The notes: generated by a model from the sequence alone, not told the origin. Shown: positions 51,526 through 59,728, counted from the first letter of the stretch. The stretch is 64,000 nucleotides of DNA from Gemmatimonas groenlandica (GCF_013004105.1 NZ_CP053085.1:186001-250000), one strand, 5' to 3'. Made by a program: numbers and translations.

Positions 51526-51555
51526 GGCGCCTCGATGTCGTGTCGATGAGGCGCC
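51526..51555. repeat. 8-bp inverted repeat downstream of the barrel gene
   Basis: GGCGCCTC (51526-51533) is inversely repeated at 51548-51555 with a 14-base loop. It lies 55 bases beyond the barrel gene's stop and before the next start. No U tract follows. Confidence 0.3.
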
Positions 51556-51614
51556 GCGCCGACCGCTACCGGTCGCGCGGCGCACTGTCGATTTCTCTCA
51601 GGAGCAGGCCCTTG

Positions 51615-53438
51615 GTGAATCAGATCGCTCGCCGCCGGTTGATGTCCGCCGCGCGGCACTCGTGGGCGCTGGCTGTCGTCACGACTCTGTCGGCGGCGTG
51701 GTTGCCCGTGTTGTCGGCGCAGGCGCCGCCGACGCAGCCGCCGACTGATACCACGCGGCCTCCGCTCGTCGGCGGTATGGCGAGCCTTCCGGCCGATCCC
51801 TTGCGCGGCAATCCGGCCACGATGAGCTCACTCGGCTCACAGGCGCGCACCATGCAAGACGGATTCGAGCGCAACCACCGCACCGGGCTCCGCTTCTACA
51901 ACGGCGGTGCCGATGCGTCGTGCGAGGTCCCGCTGGGGCGCATCTGCTATTGGAACAACAACGGCGACGTCCCGCCGCCGGCCGAGCGCAATGACGCGAA
52001 GCTCGAACGCGAACAGTTGCTGGAGTTGCTGGCACAGGCACAGGCCGCCGACCCGAAGGATGACTGGGTAAACGGCATGCGTGTGCGCTACGCGATCGAG
52101 TCGGAGCAGCGCGACGTGGCCATCAGCGCAGCGCGTGCGTGCAAGGGGACGCTGTGGTGGTGCGAGGCGCTCGAGGGACTCGCGCTGCACAACGCGAATC
52201 AGCACAAGGACGCCACGGCCGCGTTTGCGCGCGCGCTCGCGTCGATGCCGGTCGCACAGCAATGCACCTGGACCGACCTCTCGTGGTGGCTGGATCCCTC
52301 CATGCATGCCGCGTACAAGGCGACGCCGTGCGCCAACCGCGGCGCCGAAAACGTGCGCATCCTGCGACTTGCCCAGCCGTTGTGGATGATTCCCGCCAAC
52401 GACATTCAGAACGAACTGTACGCCCGTCGCACGATGTCGCGCGTGCACTCGTTGGCGCGCATTCCGTACGACCTGCAGTGGGGCGACGATCTGCTCGAGT
52501 CGCAAATGCGCTACGGTTGGCCGACCGCGTGGTCTGTGCAGAACGGCGGCGTGGCCGATCCGCGTCCGCCCTCGGTGATCGGACACGAGCCTACGCCGAG
52601 CTATGATTTCATGCCGGTCGCCGAGGCCATCGCCACGCCGCTTTCCGCTACGCCGGGTGACTGGAATCCGCGACGTCAGAAGGCGCGCATGCGCTACGCG
52701 CCGCGCTTTGCCACCGGCTTCGGCGCCTTGCCCAATCAGTTTGCGCGATTCCTGCGCGGTGACACCACGATCGTGGCTGGCGGATACCGCTTGATGCGCG
52801 AGCTCGAGATGGGCCGTGCTCCGTACACCGCCGCGCTCACGCTCGATGCATTCGATGGACGCGAGCCGCTGCAGGCCAAGCGGGATAGCGCGCAAGCCAA
52901 CGGCGCCCTCCTGCTGCCGGTACCGTCACCGATGCTGGCCAGCCTCGAAGTGCTGGCACCGGTCGGCAAGCGCGCCGCGCGCGTGCGCACGGTGATCAAG
53001 CCGTTGCCGGCTGGTACACGCCTGTCGGAATACCTGCTGCTGCAGCGCGGCGATGTGTCGGCCACACCGATGCTCGATCGCAACGCGCTGCAAGCGTATG
53101 GCAGCAACGAGATCGAAGGGGGCACGTCGATCGGTATCTACTGGGAGATGTATCGCCAGGCGTCGCCGGGTCAGCCGCTGCAAGTGTCGCTGCGGGCCAC
53201 CCGCGTAGGCGCGGGCTTCATGCAAAAACTCGGCAGTTCGTTCGGTCTCTCGAAATCCGTTACGCCGGTGTCGATCAAGTACAACGACAATGGTCGCCCC
53301 GACGGCGGGCCGGGACGCAGCCTGACCATCAACTTTCCGCAGGTGCCCGCGGGTGATTACCAGCTGACGCTGATGGTGTCAGGGGCGGGAATCACGGACA
53401 GCACGACGCAGGTGATTCGGGTGAAGGGCGGGAAATAG
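51615..53438 (+). CDS. Large exported hypothetical protein (607 aa)
   Basis: No family recognised. The signal peptide (SAARHSWALAVVTTLSAAW, about 8-35) is followed by a Pro/Thr-rich segment and then a helical, TPR-like portion (about 130-260: LALHNANQHKDATAAFARAL). An aromatic-rich central part (WGDDLLESQMRYGWPTAWSVQ) and a C-terminal beta-sandwich-like region (about 440-600, ending TLMVSGAGITDSTTQV) follow. The start is GTG 51615, 10 bases after AGGAG; the upstream frame to 51540 is unlike coding. It is probably exported or lipid-independent periplasmic. A strong terminator follows at 53546. Confidence 0.7.
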   Translation: MNQIARRRLMSAARHSWALAVVTTLSAAWLPVLSAQAPPTQPPTDTTRPPLVGGMASLPADPLRGNPATMSSLGSQARTMQDGFERNHRTGLRFYNGGADASCEVPLGRICYWNNNGDVPPPAERNDAKLEREQLLELLAQAQAADPKDDWVNGMRVRYAIESEQRDVAISAARACKGTLWWCEALEGLALHNANQHKDATAAFARALASMPVAQQCTWTDLSWWLDPSMHAAYKATPCANRGAENVRILRLAQPLWMIPANDIQNELYARRTMSRVHSLARIPYDLQWGDDLLESQMRYGWPTAWSVQNGGVADPRPPSVIGHEPTPSYDFMPVAEAIATPLSATPGDWNPRRQKARMRYAPRFATGFGALPNQFARFLRGDTTIVAGGYRLMRELEMGRAPYTAALTLDAFDGREPLQAKRDSAQANGALLLPVPSPMLASLEVLAPVGKRAARVRTVIKPLPAGTRLSEYLLLQRGDVSATPMLDRNALQAYGSNEIEGGTSIGIYWEMYRQASPGQPLQVSLRATRVGAGFMQKLGSSFGLSKSVTPVSIKYNDNGRPDGGPGRSLTINFPQVPAGDYQLTLMVSGAGITDSTTQVIRVKGGK

Positions 53439-53545: not shown

Positions 53546-53587
53546 CAACGGGCCCTGTCGATCGCTTCGACAGGGCCCGTTGCTTTT
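53546..53587 (+). terminator. Strong rho-independent terminator
   Basis: A perfect 16-bp stem (53546-53561 with 53567-53582), a 5-base loop (TCGCT) and a following CTTTT tract (53583-53587). It lies 107 bases after the stop of the gene ending at 53438 and has the best stem of any terminator in the window. Confidence 0.85.
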
Positions 53588-53703: not shown

Positions 53704-55167
53704 TCACCGCCGCTTCCCGCGCACCGTGATCATCCCGACCGGGCTGCCGTAGTCATCATTGCCCATCGGCAAACCCGGCGGCGCGATCCACGCGCCGCCA
53801 TCGGCGCGCACGGTGATGCGATGCATGCCAGGCGCAAGTTTGAGCTCGGCGCGCCAGCGTCCGTTCGTGGCGCGACGCATCTGCGTGACCGTCCACTCGG
53901 TGGCATCACCCATGAGCTCCACCGATTCTGCGCGCGGCGCATCGATCAGCAACACCACGCGTAGCGTGTCGCCATCGGGCGCAGACACACCCTGTTCCAC
54001 CGCGAGCGAATCGACGGCGCCGAGCGTGCGCGTTTCGAAGGCCAGAATACCGCCCGGCGTGCCATCGGTGCCGCGGAAGGGTAGGCGCGAAATGCGAACG
54101 CCAATGGCGAGCACCGGGGCAAAGCTACGCGCACGATGATTGTCGAGATCATCGCGCAGTGCCGTGCCACCAACGGTCGCGGCGTTGGTCGCCGCGGCGC
54201 CCACCAACGACAGCCACGCGGTGACCGGCTGCACAACCGCCAGTGATGCGACCGTCGGCAGCATACTGGGTTTCGGCGCGAGCGCGTCGCTGGAAATCCA
54301 GGTGGCAACCGGCGAGGTCACCGACACCAACCACGTGGTGGGCCCGGTGTTGAAGCCCAGCGAGGCGATGCCGGTGGCAATGTCGCGGCGCTGCAGTGAT
54401 CGCGTGGTGCGATTGCTCACGAGTCGCGTGAATCCACCGACCGTCGGCATCGTGATCGCGTCGGGCTCGTCGATCGTCAGCGTCTGCGTGGTCGTGCGTG
54501 TCGCACGTTCCACGGAGAAACCAAACGAGAACTCCATGCCCGCCACATTCGTCATCATGCCCGCCTCGGCGCGGCTGATGGCACCGACGTCGACGCGACG
54601 TGAGACCGTGGTGTCGGCCGCGCGCAGGTCGAGTCCACCGGCCGATATGGGGGGCATCGCGTTGCCCAGAATGTCGGCCGTGGGGCTGGCGCCGTTCACC
54701 GACGCGTGACCATAGCTGATCGCACTCCACACGCGCTGCTCGCCCACGCGGGCCCGCGCGCGAAGCGCGAGCGTGCCCTCGAGCTGGCCGTCGGTCCCCA
54801 CGCCTTGCGGCACGCGCCAATTGCCCGTGCCAAGCGCAGCAAGACGTACGCGGCCGATGCGACCGAGGGGCTGCGTGGCGCCAAGCCACAGGTCGTTGCG
54901 TTGCGTGAGCGCGTTGCCCGTGCCGTCGGGGAGCGCCGCGATGCCAAGTACCGACAGCGTGGAGGCGTCGGTGACCGGACCAATCGTAGCCGCCGGCGCG
55001 ATAGGCGCGTCGCCGCGAACCTGCGCGGCAAGCGACGGAGCGAACGTGAGGCTCGCCAAGGCGCACGGCACCAGTGCACGCGGCGCGAACACACGCGGCA
55101 AGGCCCATCCGCGGCTCGGCAAGGAGCGACGGTGCGACGCGCTGAGGAGGAGGCGAGCGGGCGTCAC
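53704..55167 (-). CDS. Exported protein with possible C-terminal CBM48/glycogen-binding-like module
   Basis: The 487-residue protein has a long signal region (about 1-48) and a beta-rich middle (50-390) of repeated strands, possibly a barrel-like or porin-like fold. The last ~90 residues resemble a CBM48/AMPK-type early-set domain (VELMGDATEWTVTQMRR, GMHRITVRADGG). The module is diverged. It is the last of four overlapping genes started by an ECF sigma factor. Its ATG overlaps the preceding gene (55164-55167). The glucan-binding role is inference. Confidence 0.6.
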   Translation of the reverse strand: MTPARLLLSASHRRSLPSRGWALPRVFAPRALVPCALASLTFAPSLAAQVRGDAPIAPAATIGPVTDASTLSVLGIAALPDGTGNALTQRNDLWLGATQPLGRIGRVRLAALGTGNWRVPQGVGTDGQLEGTLALRARARVGEQRVWSAISYGHASVNGASPTADILGNAMPPISAGGLDLRAADTTVSRRVDVGAISRAEAGMMTNVAGMEFSFGFSVERATRTTTQTLTIDEPDAITMPTVGGFTRLVSNRTTRSLQRRDIATGIASLGFNTGPTTWLVSVTSPVATWISSDALAPKPSMLPTVASLAVVQPVTAWLSLVGAAATNAATVGGTALRDDLDNHRARSFAPVLAIGVRISRLPFRGTDGTPGGILAFETRTLGAVDSLAVEQGVSAPDGDTLRVVLLIDAPRAESVELMGDATEWTVTQMRRATNGRWRAELKLAPGMHRITVRADGGAWIAPPGLPMGNDDYGSPVGMITVRGKRR

Positions 55168-55919
55168 GAATCAGGAGGGCGGACCGGCTTGCGGTCGCTC
55201 GTCGCGGGAGTGGACGGCGACACGGCACCGGAGACCGTACCTCGAACATAGCGATTCAACGCGTCGACAGCCATACCGGGCCCACGCTGCGAATTCTTTG
55301 CCACCGTGGATTGCAAGCCCAGCAGTGCGTCGTCGGACTTGGGCATCCGGGCGATGGTCGATACCGCCTCGCGCGCCGTTGCAGTAGGGACGCCGCGTCG
55401 GACCACATCGGTCAGCACCACCAGCGCCGTTACTGCGGTACCGGCCGGGCGCGTATTGCGCAGGACCATCAGCGTTCTGGCGTCGATGCCAGCTCTGAGC
55501 GCGGTCGCACCAGCGTCGAGCTCGGCGACAGTGCTTCCATCACCCAGCGCGTCCTTGGCCTCCGCGAGCGCGGCCGCATGGGCGCGCACCACCAGCAAAA
55601 TGCGTTGGCCGCCCACCCGCCGGGCGGCGCCCTCCAACGCGCGATTGATCAACGGCGCCGTGGGCAGCCCCTTCGCCGCGGCGTCATCGAGCAGCAGGCG
55701 CAGGGCGTTGGCGGTGAGCGTGTCGAATCGTGCGGCGTCGAACTGCCCCTGCGGATCCCGAAAGAACACCGTGTCGATCGATGCCACGAGCGCGGCCGCC
55801 GATTGCACGGAGTCGGTGCGGCTCGTGGCGATCAGCGTGGCGGCCGCCACCGGCGAGGCTATCGTCGTGGAGAGCAGCTGCAGGGAGAGCCAGAGCGTCG
55901 TGCGTGCGCGGGGCCTCAT
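55164..55919 (-). CDS. Exported hypothetical protein (251 aa)
   Basis: I recognise no family. A signal peptide (about 1-26, TTIASPVAAA) is followed by a helical, Ala-rich domain (ANALRLLLDDAAAKGLP, AAALAEAKDALGDGSTVAELDAGA). No catalytic motif is visible. It is the third gene in the sigma operon; its ATG overlaps the previous stop by 4 bases (ATGA at 55916-55919) and its own stop overlaps the next start. The exported location matches the neighbours. Confidence 0.6.
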   Translation of the reverse strand: MRPRARTTLWLSLQLLSTTIASPVAAATLIATSRTDSVQSAAALVASIDTVFFRDPQGQFDAARFDTLTANALRLLLDDAAAKGLPTAPLINRALEGAARRVGGQRILLVVRAHAAALAEAKDALGDGSTVAELDAGATALRAGIDARTLMVLRNTRPAGTAVTALVVLTDVVRRGVPTATAREAVSTIARMPKSDDALLGLQSTVAKNSQRGPGMAVDALNRYVRGTVSGAVSPSTPATSDRKPVRPPDS

Positions 55920-56554
55920 CGCGGACCGTCCACGACGACCGCGTTGGCCGGACCATACCCCTCGTCGGGCACCTGTGGCGCGAGCGGATCGACGAGCCAG
56001 GTTCGACCATCGATCACGAAGGCGTACACATGGCGGCCGGGCGGCAGAGGCACCTTTGCCGTCCAGGCGCCATCGTTGCTGCGGCGGAGCATCGGCGTGG
56101 CGTGTTCATCCCAGCCATTGAAGTCGCCAACGAGCGCGACCTCCTGGGCGGCGTTCGGCAGGGTGAGGTCGAATCGAATCGCGTCGCCGCTGGCCGCGGT
56201 CGTGCCGACGGCGGACGCCGCTCGCGACTCACCTGACGCCCCGGCAAAGGCGCTGTCGGCATGCCGCACGGCGACCTCAGGCCGCCAGGGGCGCAGCACA
56301 CTGACCACCAGGACCGCCGCGGCTGCCGCGCCCCACCACCAGCGAGGGCGTAATGCACCGCCGAACCGGCGGGCCGGCGCATGCATCGCCGCCGCGAGCA
56401 CCGAGGTGGTGCAGCGGGCAATCTGGGCGGCATCGGGGGCCGGCAGCTGAGCGTACGACGCCCGAACGCGCGCGACGAGCAACGGATCGTCGACGAACCC
56501 GGTGAGATCGAGATCGTTAGGCTCGTTCGGTTTGTGTGGGCGATCGCTATTCAA
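55916..56554 (-). CDS. Single-pass membrane protein with CBM48-like module in the anti-sigma slot
   Basis: The 212-residue protein has a cytoplasmic N-terminus (about 1-70, helical), one membrane helix (about 72-88) and a periplasmic part. The final ~90 residues are a CBM48/AMPK-type glycogen-binding early-set domain (VALVGDFNGWDEHATP, PLPPGRHVYAFVIDG). TTG at 56554 is the start: GGGAGG lies 4-5 bases upstream, and it overlaps the sigma factor's stop. Anti-sigma factors commonly occupy this slot, but no zinc (ZAS) His-Cys motif is visible. A carbohydrate-sensing anti-sigma is inference. Confidence 0.72.
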   Translation of the reverse strand: MNSDRPHKPNEPNDLDLTGFVDDPLLVARVRASYAQLPAPDAAQIARCTTSVLAAAMHAPARRFGGALRPRWWWGAAAAAVLVVSVLRPWRPEVAVRHADSAFAGASGESRAASAVGTTAASGDAIRFDLTLPNAAQEVALVGDFNGWDEHATPMLRRSNDGAWTAKVPLPPGRHVYAFVIDGRTWLVDPLAPQVPDEGYGPANAVVVDGPR

Positions 56555-57083
56555 GCGACCTCCCGAGCAGCGCACGCAGCCGCTCGCTGCCGCGCTTCAC
56601 GCGCATCTTGAGCGCCGATTCGCCGGCGCCGGTCATCGCCGACATCTCGCCGTACTCCAGTCCTTCGGCGTATTTGAGCAACAGCGCCTCCCGCTGAAGC
56701 GGGTCGAGCTGACTGAGCGCATGCACGAGCGCGGCGTCTTCGACGCCGGTCGCGAGCCCGAGTGGAGGGGCAGGCGCGGTCTCAAGAGCGATCTCGTCTT
56801 GCACGAACCGACGCGTGCGACGACCGCGGGAGGTAAGGGCGTTGCGGCACTGGTTGGTCAGGATACGAAAGAGCCACCCGCGGAACTGATCACGCTCGTC
56901 GTACCGACCGATGGCGAGATACGCGCGTAAGAAGGAGTCCTGCACCACGTCCTCCGCATCCGCTCGCTCCCCCAGCATGTGGTACGCGAAACGCCAGCAC
57001 GCGTCGTAGTACCTCGACACCAAAGTCCCAAAGGCGTCGGGGTCACCTGCGCGGGTCCGAACAACCAGCTCCGCGTCAGTCAT
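56547..57083 (-). CDS. ECF RNA polymerase sigma factor
   Basis: A 178-residue extracytoplasmic-function sigma factor. Region 2 (about 10-80) includes FRGWLFRILTNQCRNAL-type helices (YDERDQFRGWLF). Region 4 (about 120-175) has the helix-turn-helix LEYGEMSAMTGAGESALKMRVKRG. Regions 3 and a long C-terminal extension are absent, as is usual for ECF sigmas. It opens the operon: the next gene starts within its stop. A 76-bp gap separates it from the preceding gene. No promoter pair for autoregulation could be assigned. Confidence 0.9.
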   Translation of the reverse strand: MTDAELVVRTRAGDPDAFGTLVSRYYDACWRFAYHMLGERADAEDVVQDSFLRAYLAIGRYDERDQFRGWLFRILTNQCRNALTSRGRRTRRFVQDEIALETAPAPPLGLATGVEDAALVHALSQLDPLQREALLLKYAEGLEYGEMSAMTGAGESALKMRVKRGSERLRALLGRSLE

Positions 57084-57159
57084 CGATGAACAACAGCCCA
57101 GCCGCGATGCGCGTCACCAGAATCCCCGGTTCCGACCCAACGCGACCCCAGTGCACCGA

Positions 57160-57720
57160 TCATCCCCCGATCGTTGCTACGGCAAGCATCATCGACAGCG
57201 CCACGAACAACGAGGTCGCCATCCTGTTTACGCCACCGACCCGACGAAGCAACAGCTCCGACTCAGCCTGTGGCAACTGCTGCTGCACCACCAAGCGGTT
57301 TGCCGCTCGGGCCCGACGGTAGAGAAACCAGTTCGCCGTCCCGCCAGACGCCAACATCGTGGAGACGAACACTGCCGCGTTCATCATCAGCAGCCACTCG
57401 TTTTCCGGCTGCTGCATCGCCGCCATCGTGAGCGGCTTCTCGGTGCCGGTCAACAAACGAAACGCGATCCCCGGCATCAGGAAGAAAAAGGCGAACGGCA
57501 AGTACAACTTTCGGTACAGGAACCACGCCGGCGGAAAGGCGATTGCCGCGCTCCAGTTCCAGGTCGGCACGAACGACGCGTCGTCGAGAAACGGCGCCAA
57601 CTTGCGGCGATACACCTTCTCCCACTTGGGACCGATGAACGCTTCCATCTCCGCATCGCTTGGCTGCTCGAGCGATCGCTCCTGATTCTGCTTTTGCGCC
57701 CAGCGCGGCAACTCGTTCAT
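57160..57720 (-). CDS. DUF2628-like membrane protein
   Basis: The 186-residue protein has a charged N-terminus (FIGPKWEKVYRRKLAPF), then WNWSAAIAFPPAWFLYRKLY, the pattern of DUF2628 proteins. Membrane helices lie at about 53-85, 105-125 and 155-180. The function is unknown. ATG at 57720 overlaps the agmatine deiminase stop (57717), so it is coupled to that operon. The open frame to 57897 overlaps the neighbour and is rejected. It ends 76 bases before the sigma factor gene. Confidence 0.75.
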   Translation of the reverse strand: MNELPRWAQKQNQERSLEQPSDAEMEAFIGPKWEKVYRRKLAPFLDDASFVPTWNWSAAIAFPPAWFLYRKLYLPFAFFFLMPGIAFRLLTGTEKPLTMAAMQQPENEWLLMMNAAVFVSTMLASGGTANWFLYRRARAANRLVVQQQLPQAESELLLRRVGGVNRMATSLFVALSMMLAVATIGG

Positions 57721-58808
57721 GACGCCACCTCCGCTGAAGCGGCAGCGGGCTGCTGCTGACTGAGACAATGCAGCGTGCCGAGGCCCCACACCAGATCCAC
57801 CGCGTGAATGCCCACGATACGATGCTCGGGCAGGAGCGCAGCAAGACTGTTCAACGCAACTCGATCGTTCGGGTCGTTGAACGTGGGTACAATGCACACC
57901 CCGTTGGCGATGTAGAAGTTCGCGTAGCTCGCCGGCAGCCGCGTACCGTCCATGATCACCGCGCGCGGATACGGCAGCGTGACCACCCGGATCGGTTCAC
58001 CGCGCGCATCGCGCGCGCGCTGCAAGCGGTGCAGGTTGTCGAGTGATCGCGCATGATTCTCGTCGGCGGGATCCTCTTCGTGCGCCAGCACCACGACGCC
58101 CGGCGACACGAAGCGCGCGATGTCGTCCACGTGCCCATGCGTGTCGTCGCCCACGCATCCCTCGCCCAGCCAGACGGTGTGCGTGATGCCAAGGTACGTA
58201 TGAAACGCGCGCTCGTAGTCGGCGCGCGTGAAGCCCGGATTGCGCACCTGCACATCCGACAACAACCACTCTTCCGTCACCAGCATCGTCCCGAGTCCAT
58301 CGGTCTCGATGCCGCCGCCTTCGAGAATCAGGCGCTGCCCGTTGTCGTGACACATCGCCTCCACACGCGGCAGTGACGTCACCCGCGAGACCGCCTCCGG
58401 CACATACACGTCCAGCGCATAGTTGTCGTACTTGCTCCACGCGTCGAAGCCCCAGTGCACGAGCGCCACGCTGCCGTCGGCGCGCTGCACGCCGGTCGGC
58501 CCCGAGTCGCGCAGCCACACCCGGTCGGTGGGCTGCACGTGCAGTCGATAGTGATCGGCGTGCACACCGTGCATCGTGAGCGCGGCACGTGCGTCCTCGC
58601 ACACGGCGTCATCCTGACAGAGAATCTCCACGCGCTCGAACGGCGCGAGGGCCCGCACGATCTCGGCGTACACCCAGGGAATCGGCGCGAACTTGCCGGG
58701 CCAGTCGGGTTCGTGGGTGGGCCACCCGATCCACGTTGCGTCGTGACGCTCCCATTCGGCAGGCATCCGCACCGGACCGAGTGCTGACAAGTCGATGAGG
58801 TGACTCAA
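57717..58808 (-). CDS. aguA: Agmatine deiminase
   Basis: Agmatine deiminase turns agmatine into N-carbamoylputrescine and ammonia. The 363-residue protein has the family blocks WPTHEPDWPGKF, RDSGPTGV, ILEGGGIETDGLGT, GDDTHGHVDDIARF and the catalytic Cys348 in GTLHCLSQQQP. It is full length. Its start (58808) overlaps the stop of aguB (58805) by 4 bases, so both proteins are made from one transcript. This gives the two-step agmatine-to-putrescine route. Confidence 0.95.
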   Translation of the reverse strand: MSHLIDLSALGPVRMPAEWERHDATWIGWPTHEPDWPGKFAPIPWVYAEIVRALAPFERVEILCQDDAVCEDARAALTMHGVHADHYRLHVQPTDRVWLRDSGPTGVQRADGSVALVHWGFDAWSKYDNYALDVYVPEAVSRVTSLPRVEAMCHDNGQRLILEGGGIETDGLGTMLVTEEWLLSDVQVRNPGFTRADYERAFHTYLGITHTVWLGEGCVGDDTHGHVDDIARFVSPGVVVLAHEEDPADENHARSLDNLHRLQRARDARGEPIRVVTLPYPRAVIMDGTRLPASYANFYIANGVCIVPTFNDPNDRVALNSLAALLPEHRIVGIHAVDLVWGLGTLHCLSQQQPAAASAEVAS

Positions 58809-59728
58809 CGACCGGCCAGCCAGCGCTGCGTGATCGGACCGTAGGCATCGATGCGGCGATCCCGCAGGAACGGCCAGTTGCGACGCGTCTCTTCGATCAG
58901 GCCAAGGTCACATGCCGCAACGAGAATCTCCGGTTCGGTACCGGCCTGTGCGAGATAGCGTCCGAACGGATCGGCGATGAACGACTGTCCGAAGAACTCG
59001 AGGCCATCGGTGCCGGGCTCCGGCTCGAAGCCCACGCGATTCGGCGACGCGACGAACACGCCGTTGGCGATCGCATGCGCGCGCTGCGCGGTGCGCCACG
59101 CGTCGACCTGCGCGTCGCCGAACGTCGCCTTCTCGCCCGGATGCCACGCAATCGCCGTGGGATAGAACAGCACCTGGGCTCCGAGCAACGCCGTGATGCG
59201 CGCCGCTTCCGGATACCACTGATCCCAGCAGATCAAGACGCCGATGTTCGCGTACTTGGTATGCCACACGCGAAAGCCGTTGATGCCCGGATGCGCATCG
59301 TGCCGCAGATCCGCCGTGACGTCGCCGGGCGCGAAGTAATATTTCTCCTCGAACAGCGGATCGTGCGGAATGTGCATCTTGCGATACGTGCCGAGCACAC
59401 TGCCGTCGGCATCGATCACGGTGGCCGAGTTGCGATAGAGGCCCGCCGCCTCACGCTCGTAGTACGGCACGACGATGACGACGTCGAGTTCCTTGGCGAG
59501 CGCCTGAAACGTGTGCACCGTTGGACCGTCGGCTGGTTCGGCGATGTCGAACCGCTCGGGCTTCACGCTCTTACAGAAATACGGCGCGTTGAAGAGCTCT
59601 TGCAAGCAGATGATCTGCGCACCGCGCGCGGCGGCTTCGCGCACACGCGCCACCGCACGCGTCACGTTGGCGGCGAGATCATCCGAGGCGGTGTCCTGAA
59701 TGACACCGATGTTCACGATGTTGGCCAT
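58805..59728 (-). CDS. aguB: N-carbamoylputrescine amidase
   Basis: This nitrilase-family amidase hydrolyses N-carbamoylputrescine to putrescine, CO2 and ammonia. The catalytic triad is Glu44 (CLQELFNAPYF), Lys117 (GTYRKMHIPHDP) and Cys167 (VLICWDQWYPE). The length of 307 residues is normal. It is encoded 44 bases after the TetR regulator and overlaps aguA. Together these genes make putrescine from agmatine; arginine decarboxylase is not in the window. Confidence 0.95.
   Translation of the reverse strand: MANIVNIGVIQDTASDDLAANVTRAVARVREAAARGAQIICLQELFNAPYFCKSVKPERFDIAEPADGPTVHTFQALAKELDVVIVVPYYEREAAGLYRNSATVIDADGSVLGTYRKMHIPHDPLFEEKYYFAPGDVTADLRHDAHPGINGFRVWHTKYANIGVLICWDQWYPEAARITALLGAQVLFYPTAIAWHPGEKATFGDAQVDAWRTAQRAHAIANGVFVASPNRVGFEPEPGTDGLEFFGQSFIADPFGRYLAQAGTEPEILVAACDLGLIEETRRNWPFLRDRRIDAYGPITQRWLAGR

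Follow-up and report, generated by a model that had tools for sequence, protein, structure and literature searches.

A conserved ECF sigma factor operon of Gemmatimonadota with a probable anti-sigma factor and a predicted outer-membrane barrel that both end in CBM48-type domains

The window, that is, the whole stretch of 64,000 nucleotides of Gemmatimonas groenlandica DNA that was analysed, belongs to a genome of 5.18 Mb assembled as a single contig. Its minus strand carries, from 57083 to 53704, four tightly packed genes in the order ECF sigma factor, p2, p3, and p4. Their features are as follows, with p2 residues numbered by position in the 211-residue fragment 55919-56551.

57091..57117, minus strand: promoter-like motif GTGACG-N16-TGTTG, 7 bases 5′ of the sigma ATG, of putative function
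56547..57083, minus strand: ECF sigma factor, 178 aa, with Sigma70_r2 and Sigma70_r4_2 over the Pfam cut-off and a place in a sigma clade of SH-aLRT 99
55916..56554, minus strand: p2, probable anti-sigma factor (cytoplasmic N-terminus, transmembrane segment, periplasmic CBM48), with a putative TTG start
56378..56494, minus strand: probable two-helix anti-sigma region of p2, fragment residues 20-58, from a family profile against anti-sigma helix 4; the single-sequence match is weak
56294..56341, minus strand: transmembrane segment of p2, residues ~71-86, from hydropathy
55931..56182, minus strand: CBM48/AMPK-type domain of p2 with GDFNGWD, residues 130-207 (CBM_48 1e-10, AMPK1_CBM 1.2e-9, AMPK-beta chains 1e-6)
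55164..55919, minus strand: p3, exported protein of 251 aa without a known family, all-helical in its model
53704..55167, minus strand: p4, exported protein of 487 aa, a predicted outer-membrane barrel plus CBM48 (model and structure matches)
54085..54960, minus strand: predicted 12-strand barrel of p4, residues 70-361 (model; barrel matches with Z 14-17)
53719..54009, minus strand: C-terminal CBM48/AMPK-type domain of p4, residues 387-483 (pLDDT ~90; AMPK-beta CBM, Z 12.2; below the Pfam cut-off alone)

The start of p2 is most likely the TTG at 56554, which gives an 8-base overlap with the sigma stop (TTGAATAG). This codon is preferred because an overlap of 8 bases is the commonest spacing between the sigma and p2 genes in relatives (median −8); a GTG at 56575 is a possible alternative. 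Overlaps of 4 bases join p2 to p3 (55916-55919) and p3 to p4 (55164-55167), and the initial annotation, which had described an overlap through the sigma stop followed by overlaps of 4 bases, is borne out in this respect. p4 and the gene convergent with it (51540-53438) are separated by a strong terminator-like hairpin of 16 pairs (53546-53582). Upstream, 57717-59728 encodes two overlapping genes that by eye resemble agmatine deiminase and N-carbamoylputrescine amidase, a putrescine route.

The sigma factor matches Sigma70_r2 (4e-19) and Sigma70_r4_2 (9e-11) in Pfam and scores 92.8 bits against TIGR02937 (sigma70-ECF; cut-off 42.9). With 178 aa and sigma-70 regions 2 and 4 only, it has the composition and the size (~180 aa) by which ECF factors are defined. 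A single clade (SH-aLRT 99) unites the operon sigmas of Gemmatimonadota and Ca. Eisenbacteria with two more sigmas of the G. groenlandica genome, and operon sigmas from more distant phyla are placed elsewhere in the tree on long branches.

Of 20 operons from the same genus, 19 have an exact GTGACG-N16-TGTTG located 5-8 bases 5′ of the sigma start, and both the spacer and the flanks vary among them. In the window, this motif has a single match against 0.06 expected, and a sigma-70 promoter, looked for near the operon, was not found. The motif is likely the sigma factor's own promoter, and its recurrence 5′ of sigma in these congeners suggests that the operon is probably autoregulated. The G. 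groenlandica genome contains five exact copies, the one at the operon included; the remaining copies are mostly inside long open frames, and none is closely 5′ of an ATG. When the motif was searched genus-wide with its ATG spacing, the operon copy recurred and the other matches were scattered. A regulon beyond the operon is not claimed, since no further site was seen to be shared among congeners as widely as that of the operon.

Among 61 genomes from the genus, family, and order, 53 encode relatives of p2, and the p2 family extends to 98 of 150 genomes (54 of 75 genera) of the phylum. Genomes with the family have between one and eight matches each, some of them p4. Same-genus genomes harbor additional paralogous copies of the operon. 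The initial annotation had suggested a search for conserved neighbourhoods with an ECF gene followed by a gene for a membrane-anchored CBM48 protein, and the order is kept in relatives: among 61 p2-type loci, the window included, 58 have a sigma gene directly upstream of p2. Two of the three exceptions are a locus that begins at a contig end (L051) and a p4-like orphan (L063). The sigma and p2 genes overlap in 52 of these 58 loci, and p3 follows p2 in 56. p3 and p4 are no more than 1 kb apart in 48 of 57 loci, with several of the misses at contig ends, and in two loci (L054 and L062) p4 is placed before sigma. Because the order recurs throughout relatives, the gene arrangement is not due to chance; the operon is conserved across the phylum and is also found in a few other phyla. 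A sigma gene lies directly upstream in only 5 of 60 CBM48 loci outside the phylum; therefore, the sigma pairing is a property of this module and not something that CBM48 genes show in general. The operon order beyond the phylum, the p4 barrel, and the promoter-like motif extend what the initial annotation had described.

The second protein, p2, has one transmembrane segment by hydropathy ahead of a domain (residues 130-207) that matches CBM_48 with 42.2 bits (1e-10; Pfam cut-off 22.4), AMPK1_CBM with 1.2e-9, and AMPK-beta chains with an E value of 1e-6. Its earlier description as a single membrane helix with a GDFNGWD-containing CBM48 domain is thus confirmed by a Pfam match well over the cut-off. 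In Gemmatimonadota, ~66 residues precede the transmembrane segment. No anti-sigma Pfam domain was found in 47 p2 members, that of the window included, and the zinc-binding sequence HxxxCxxC is absent from all 75 Gemmatimonadota p2 proteins checked. The N-terminal three-helix bundle of class I anti-sigma domains is likewise not recognised in Gemmatimonadota p2; it is present in L108 and L119, described below. The N-terminal family profile of p2 aligns to helix 4 of anti-sigma domains with a score of 24.2 (P 2e-4), at an hhalign probability of only 46%, and with 21.5 (25%) when the L276 sequence is added; column-shuffled controls reach at most 8.9 and the reversed control 8.1. The p2 of the window is therefore described here as a protein without the zinc bundle, the remainder of which aligns with anti-sigma helix 4 at the level of family profiles. 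Class I anti-sigma factors bind sigma2 through helix 4, and a similar binding mode is described for CnrY, which has two helices (PMC7406223).

Forms of p2 that retain a zinc finger are found in other phyla. L119 (Ca. Desantisbacteria) and L108 (a MAG labelled Clostridia) combine a zf-HC2 domain above the Pfam cut-off, a helix-4-like segment, a transmembrane segment, and CBM48 in one protein that sits in the p2 slot, and such fusions have sigma before and p3 after them. Four loci of the Fibrobacterota group, namely L120 (Chitinispirillaceae) and L227-L229, have HxxxCxxC by eye and the same two neighbours. In L123 (Krumholzibacteriota), where the protein is preceded by sigma and followed by p4, the N-terminus is zinc-free and matches zf-HC2 weakly (0.0027), and one genome (G181) has both zinc and zinc-free forms, each with sigma and p3. 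The forms themselves, and not a tree, suggest that the zinc domain shrank to a short helical remnant in the p2 lineage. The initial annotation had assigned p2 to the slot usually occupied by anti-sigma factors. The conserved order, the fusions of a zinc anti-sigma domain, transmembrane segment, and CBM48 elsewhere, and the helix-4 profile alignment lend support to this role and make it very likely that p2 is the cognate anti-sigma factor.

Several related loci deviate from the full operon. The genome of G. groenlandica contains a sister sigma followed by a probable anti-sigma protein with WLDGE, NIMAAIPEA, and a transmembrane segment, and with no sensor domain (L276:5174-6249; G000:C1 ~3015200-3016250). 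A second sister sigma is followed by a p2-like transmembrane protein with an eroded CBM (GTFNGWH), with neither p3 nor p4 at the locus (L277:6188-7591; G000:C1 ~3629200-3630600). In an Elusimicrobia MAG (G182), one contig (at the start of L111) ends with p3, sigma, and the start of a zinc anti-sigma gene, and another (at the end of L222) begins with a transmembrane CBM48 protein; these contigs may carry the two parts of a single operon.

In the model of p4, residues 70-361 form 12 long strands and the CBM comes after them; the mean pLDDT is 69, that is, moderate confidence, and ~90 for the CBM. The barrel resembles autotransporter translocators and oligosaccharide porins such as NanC and VhGalP with Z scores of 14-17, a likeness of the model that reflects common architecture and not function. 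The C-terminal module gives 23.5 bits (6e-5) against AMPK1_CBM, below the Pfam cut-off of 26.8 bits. However, AMPK1_CBM is matched at E ≤ 0.1 by 54 of 61 p4 relatives, and model residues 398-483 superimpose on AMPK-beta CBM structures with Z 12.2 and 1.6 Å over 83 residues, which upholds the earlier impression that p4 ends in a module similar to that of p2. The termini of such outer-membrane barrels face the periplasm; thus, the CBM of p4 would lie opposite that of p2. On the strength of the model, there is a high likelihood that p4 is an outer-membrane barrel with a periplasmic CBM. The p3 model is all-helical, with pLDDT ~97 over residues 62-230, and no Pfam family was found for this protein. 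An assignment of p3 as a designed-PPR-like or other helical repeat was rejected: the sequence match is weak, and the structure matches are mostly designed repeats at Z ~10, the noise level of helical proteins.

In AMPK, residues W100, K126, W133, and N150 matter for glycogen (PMC4032982). All 80 p2 and all 69 p4 proteins examined retain the first tryptophan; the second is retained by 66 of 80 p2 and by 67 of 69 p4. K126 is replaced in every operon CBM counted, in p2 (80/80) as well as in p4. CBM48 proteins without a sigma neighbour, by comparison, have Arg or Lys at this site in 26 of 31 cases. A simple pattern detected an equivalent of N150 in 49 of 80 p2 and 3 of 75 p4; it gave no match in 5 p2 and 29 p4. 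Judged by these residues, the chance that the operon CBMs bind a sugar ligand is somewhat short of even; the ligand may differ from glycogen, or binding may have been lost. The glucan or other carbohydrate signal proposed in the initial annotation may therefore apply, and a relay through CBM-CBM contacts or mediated by p3 is an equally plausible alternative to it.

CBM48 domains also occur in other protein contexts. In a Latescibacterota MAG (L115:4257-5345) and an Omnitrophota MAG (L121:1890-2972), a C-terminal CBM48 follows what by eye is a ParA/MinD-type ATPase. Small proteins of a Fibrobacterota set (L231-L245, near 1400-2000 each) have a lysine/alanine-rich, histone-H1-like tail before CBM48. 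A Krumholzibacteriota MAG with twelve CBM48 matches (G185) includes a 1073-aa open frame with three of them in a row (G185:C14:20420-21352, L223).

The operon is best read, with a probability of roughly 0.55, as an autoregulated ECF sigma/anti-sigma system spanning both membranes, in which the CBM of p2 acts in relay with p4 and p3. p2 would hold the sigma factor at the inner membrane via a short, probably two-helix cytoplasmic domain that makes a helix-4-type contact with sigma region 2. The periplasmic AMPK-type CBM of p2 would receive the signal in cooperation with its counterpart at the periplasmic end of the p4 barrel and with the helical, periplasmic p3. This assembly would be altered by a trigger, in the simplest case a glucan or oligosaccharide entering through p4 or accumulating at it, whereupon p2, we infer, releases the sigma factor, and the freed sigma would transcribe its own operon from GTGACG-N16-TGTTG. 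The relay from p4 to p2 across the periplasm is a tentative element that we infer from the arrangement of the two CBMs, the odds leaning slightly against it. More speculative still is a TonB-independent trans-envelope switch in which one glucan links the CBMs of p4 and p2, or the two CBMs bind each other, and p3 serves as adaptor, such that the sigma factor reads arrivals at the outer membrane.

Alternatively, the CBM of p2 alone might bind periplasmic alpha-glucan or maltooligosaccharide and thereby free the sigma factor, as proposed for RsgI, in which case p3 and p4 would be targets serving capture and uptake. Such direct sensing agrees with the retention of both tryptophans, with a counterpart of N150 in 49 or more of the 80 p2, with the similarity of the p4 barrel to oligosaccharide porins, among others, and with the existence of some sigma-p2-p3 operons without a nearby p4. 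However, the AMPK lysine is missing from all 80 p2, yet 26 of 31 stand-alone CBM48 proteins have Arg or Lys there, and p3 nearly always accompanies p2, making this reading somewhat unlikely. The lost lysine would also be compatible with a protein-based envelope sensor in which the CBM48 folds are protein-binding modules and the assembly state or abundance of p4 (or p3), and no sugar, is the signal. The folds of p2 and p4 match, the sugar-contact lysine is lost in both, N150 is lost in most p4, and of the sister pairs in the same genome one has an eroded CBM and another none. Both tryptophans are nevertheless kept in 67 of 69 p4 and in most p2, although the first may be structural, and a purely protein-based signal is considered unlikely, although it and direct sensing by p2 both come close to the favored reading. 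That p2 is a glucan-binding membrane protein merely co-expressed with a sigma factor controlled otherwise, e.g., by transcription, would explain why the p2 of the window has no anti-sigma domain recognised by Pfam, but it is highly improbable in view of the zinc-finger anti-sigma versions in the same slot, the helix-4 alignment, and the near-constant overlap with sigma.

The two-membrane system with p2 as anti-sigma factor, favored here, shares features with several known systems. In SigI/RsgI of cellulolytic clostridia, a single operon encodes the sigma factor and a single-pass anti-sigma factor with an extracytoplasmic carbohydrate module as the proposed sensor, and is autoregulated (PMC6056542). 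The present operon likewise combines a sigma factor, a single-pass anti-sigma candidate with a carbohydrate-type module, and proposed autoregulation. In contrast, SigI is not an ECF factor, the CBM family differs, the present operon includes an outer-membrane barrel and p3, and no RsgI-type anti-sigma domain was found by Pfam in 47 p2 proteins. ECF52 proteins (e.g., SCO4117), reported only in Actinobacteria, fuse sigma, a zinc anti-sigma domain, a transmembrane segment, and a carbohydrate-binding domain in one protein (PMC5826349). The same elements are linked here, but as separate genes, and ECF52 carries another carbohydrate module. FecA-FecR-FecI comprises an outer-membrane barrel with a periplasmic signalling domain, a single-pass anti-sigma factor, and an ECF sigma factor (PMC9249621), a layout that the present operon resembles. 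Unlike FecA, p4 has a plugless 12-strand barrel in its model and a C-terminal CBM instead of an N-terminal signalling domain, and TonB-receptor Pfam domains were found in none of 61 p4. Because its sigma is an ECF factor and not SigI, its proteins are separate, and p4 is without TonB-receptor domains, the operon belongs to none of these three systems.

At the level of domains, the helix-4-type segment before the transmembrane segment of p2 is like that of class I anti-sigma domains (RseA, RskA, ChrR, and RsiW) and of the two-helix CnrY (PMC7406223); unlike in class I, the three-helix bundle is not recognisable in Gemmatimonadota p2. Both p2 and p4 share the fold and the two sugar-contact tryptophans of the AMPK beta CBM48, from which they differ by the absence of K126, by an N150 equivalent present in most p2 and few p4, and by their periplasmic setting. 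A literature search, the supplements of the ECF classification excepted, returned a few papers containing both terms (ECF sigma/anti-sigma and CBM48) and, as judged from titles and abstracts, none joining the two in this way; the sigma group may be listed under a number in those supplements. If the proposed reading is true, the sensors used by anti-sigma factors come to include the AMPK glycogen-binding fold, zinc anti-sigma domains can be reduced to a short helical remnant, and Gemmatimonadota have a signalling module that is phylum-wide, occurs in several copies, and offers a testable promoter. The barrel and its helical partner suggest a relay from the outer to the inner membrane unlike that of TonB-dependent systems.
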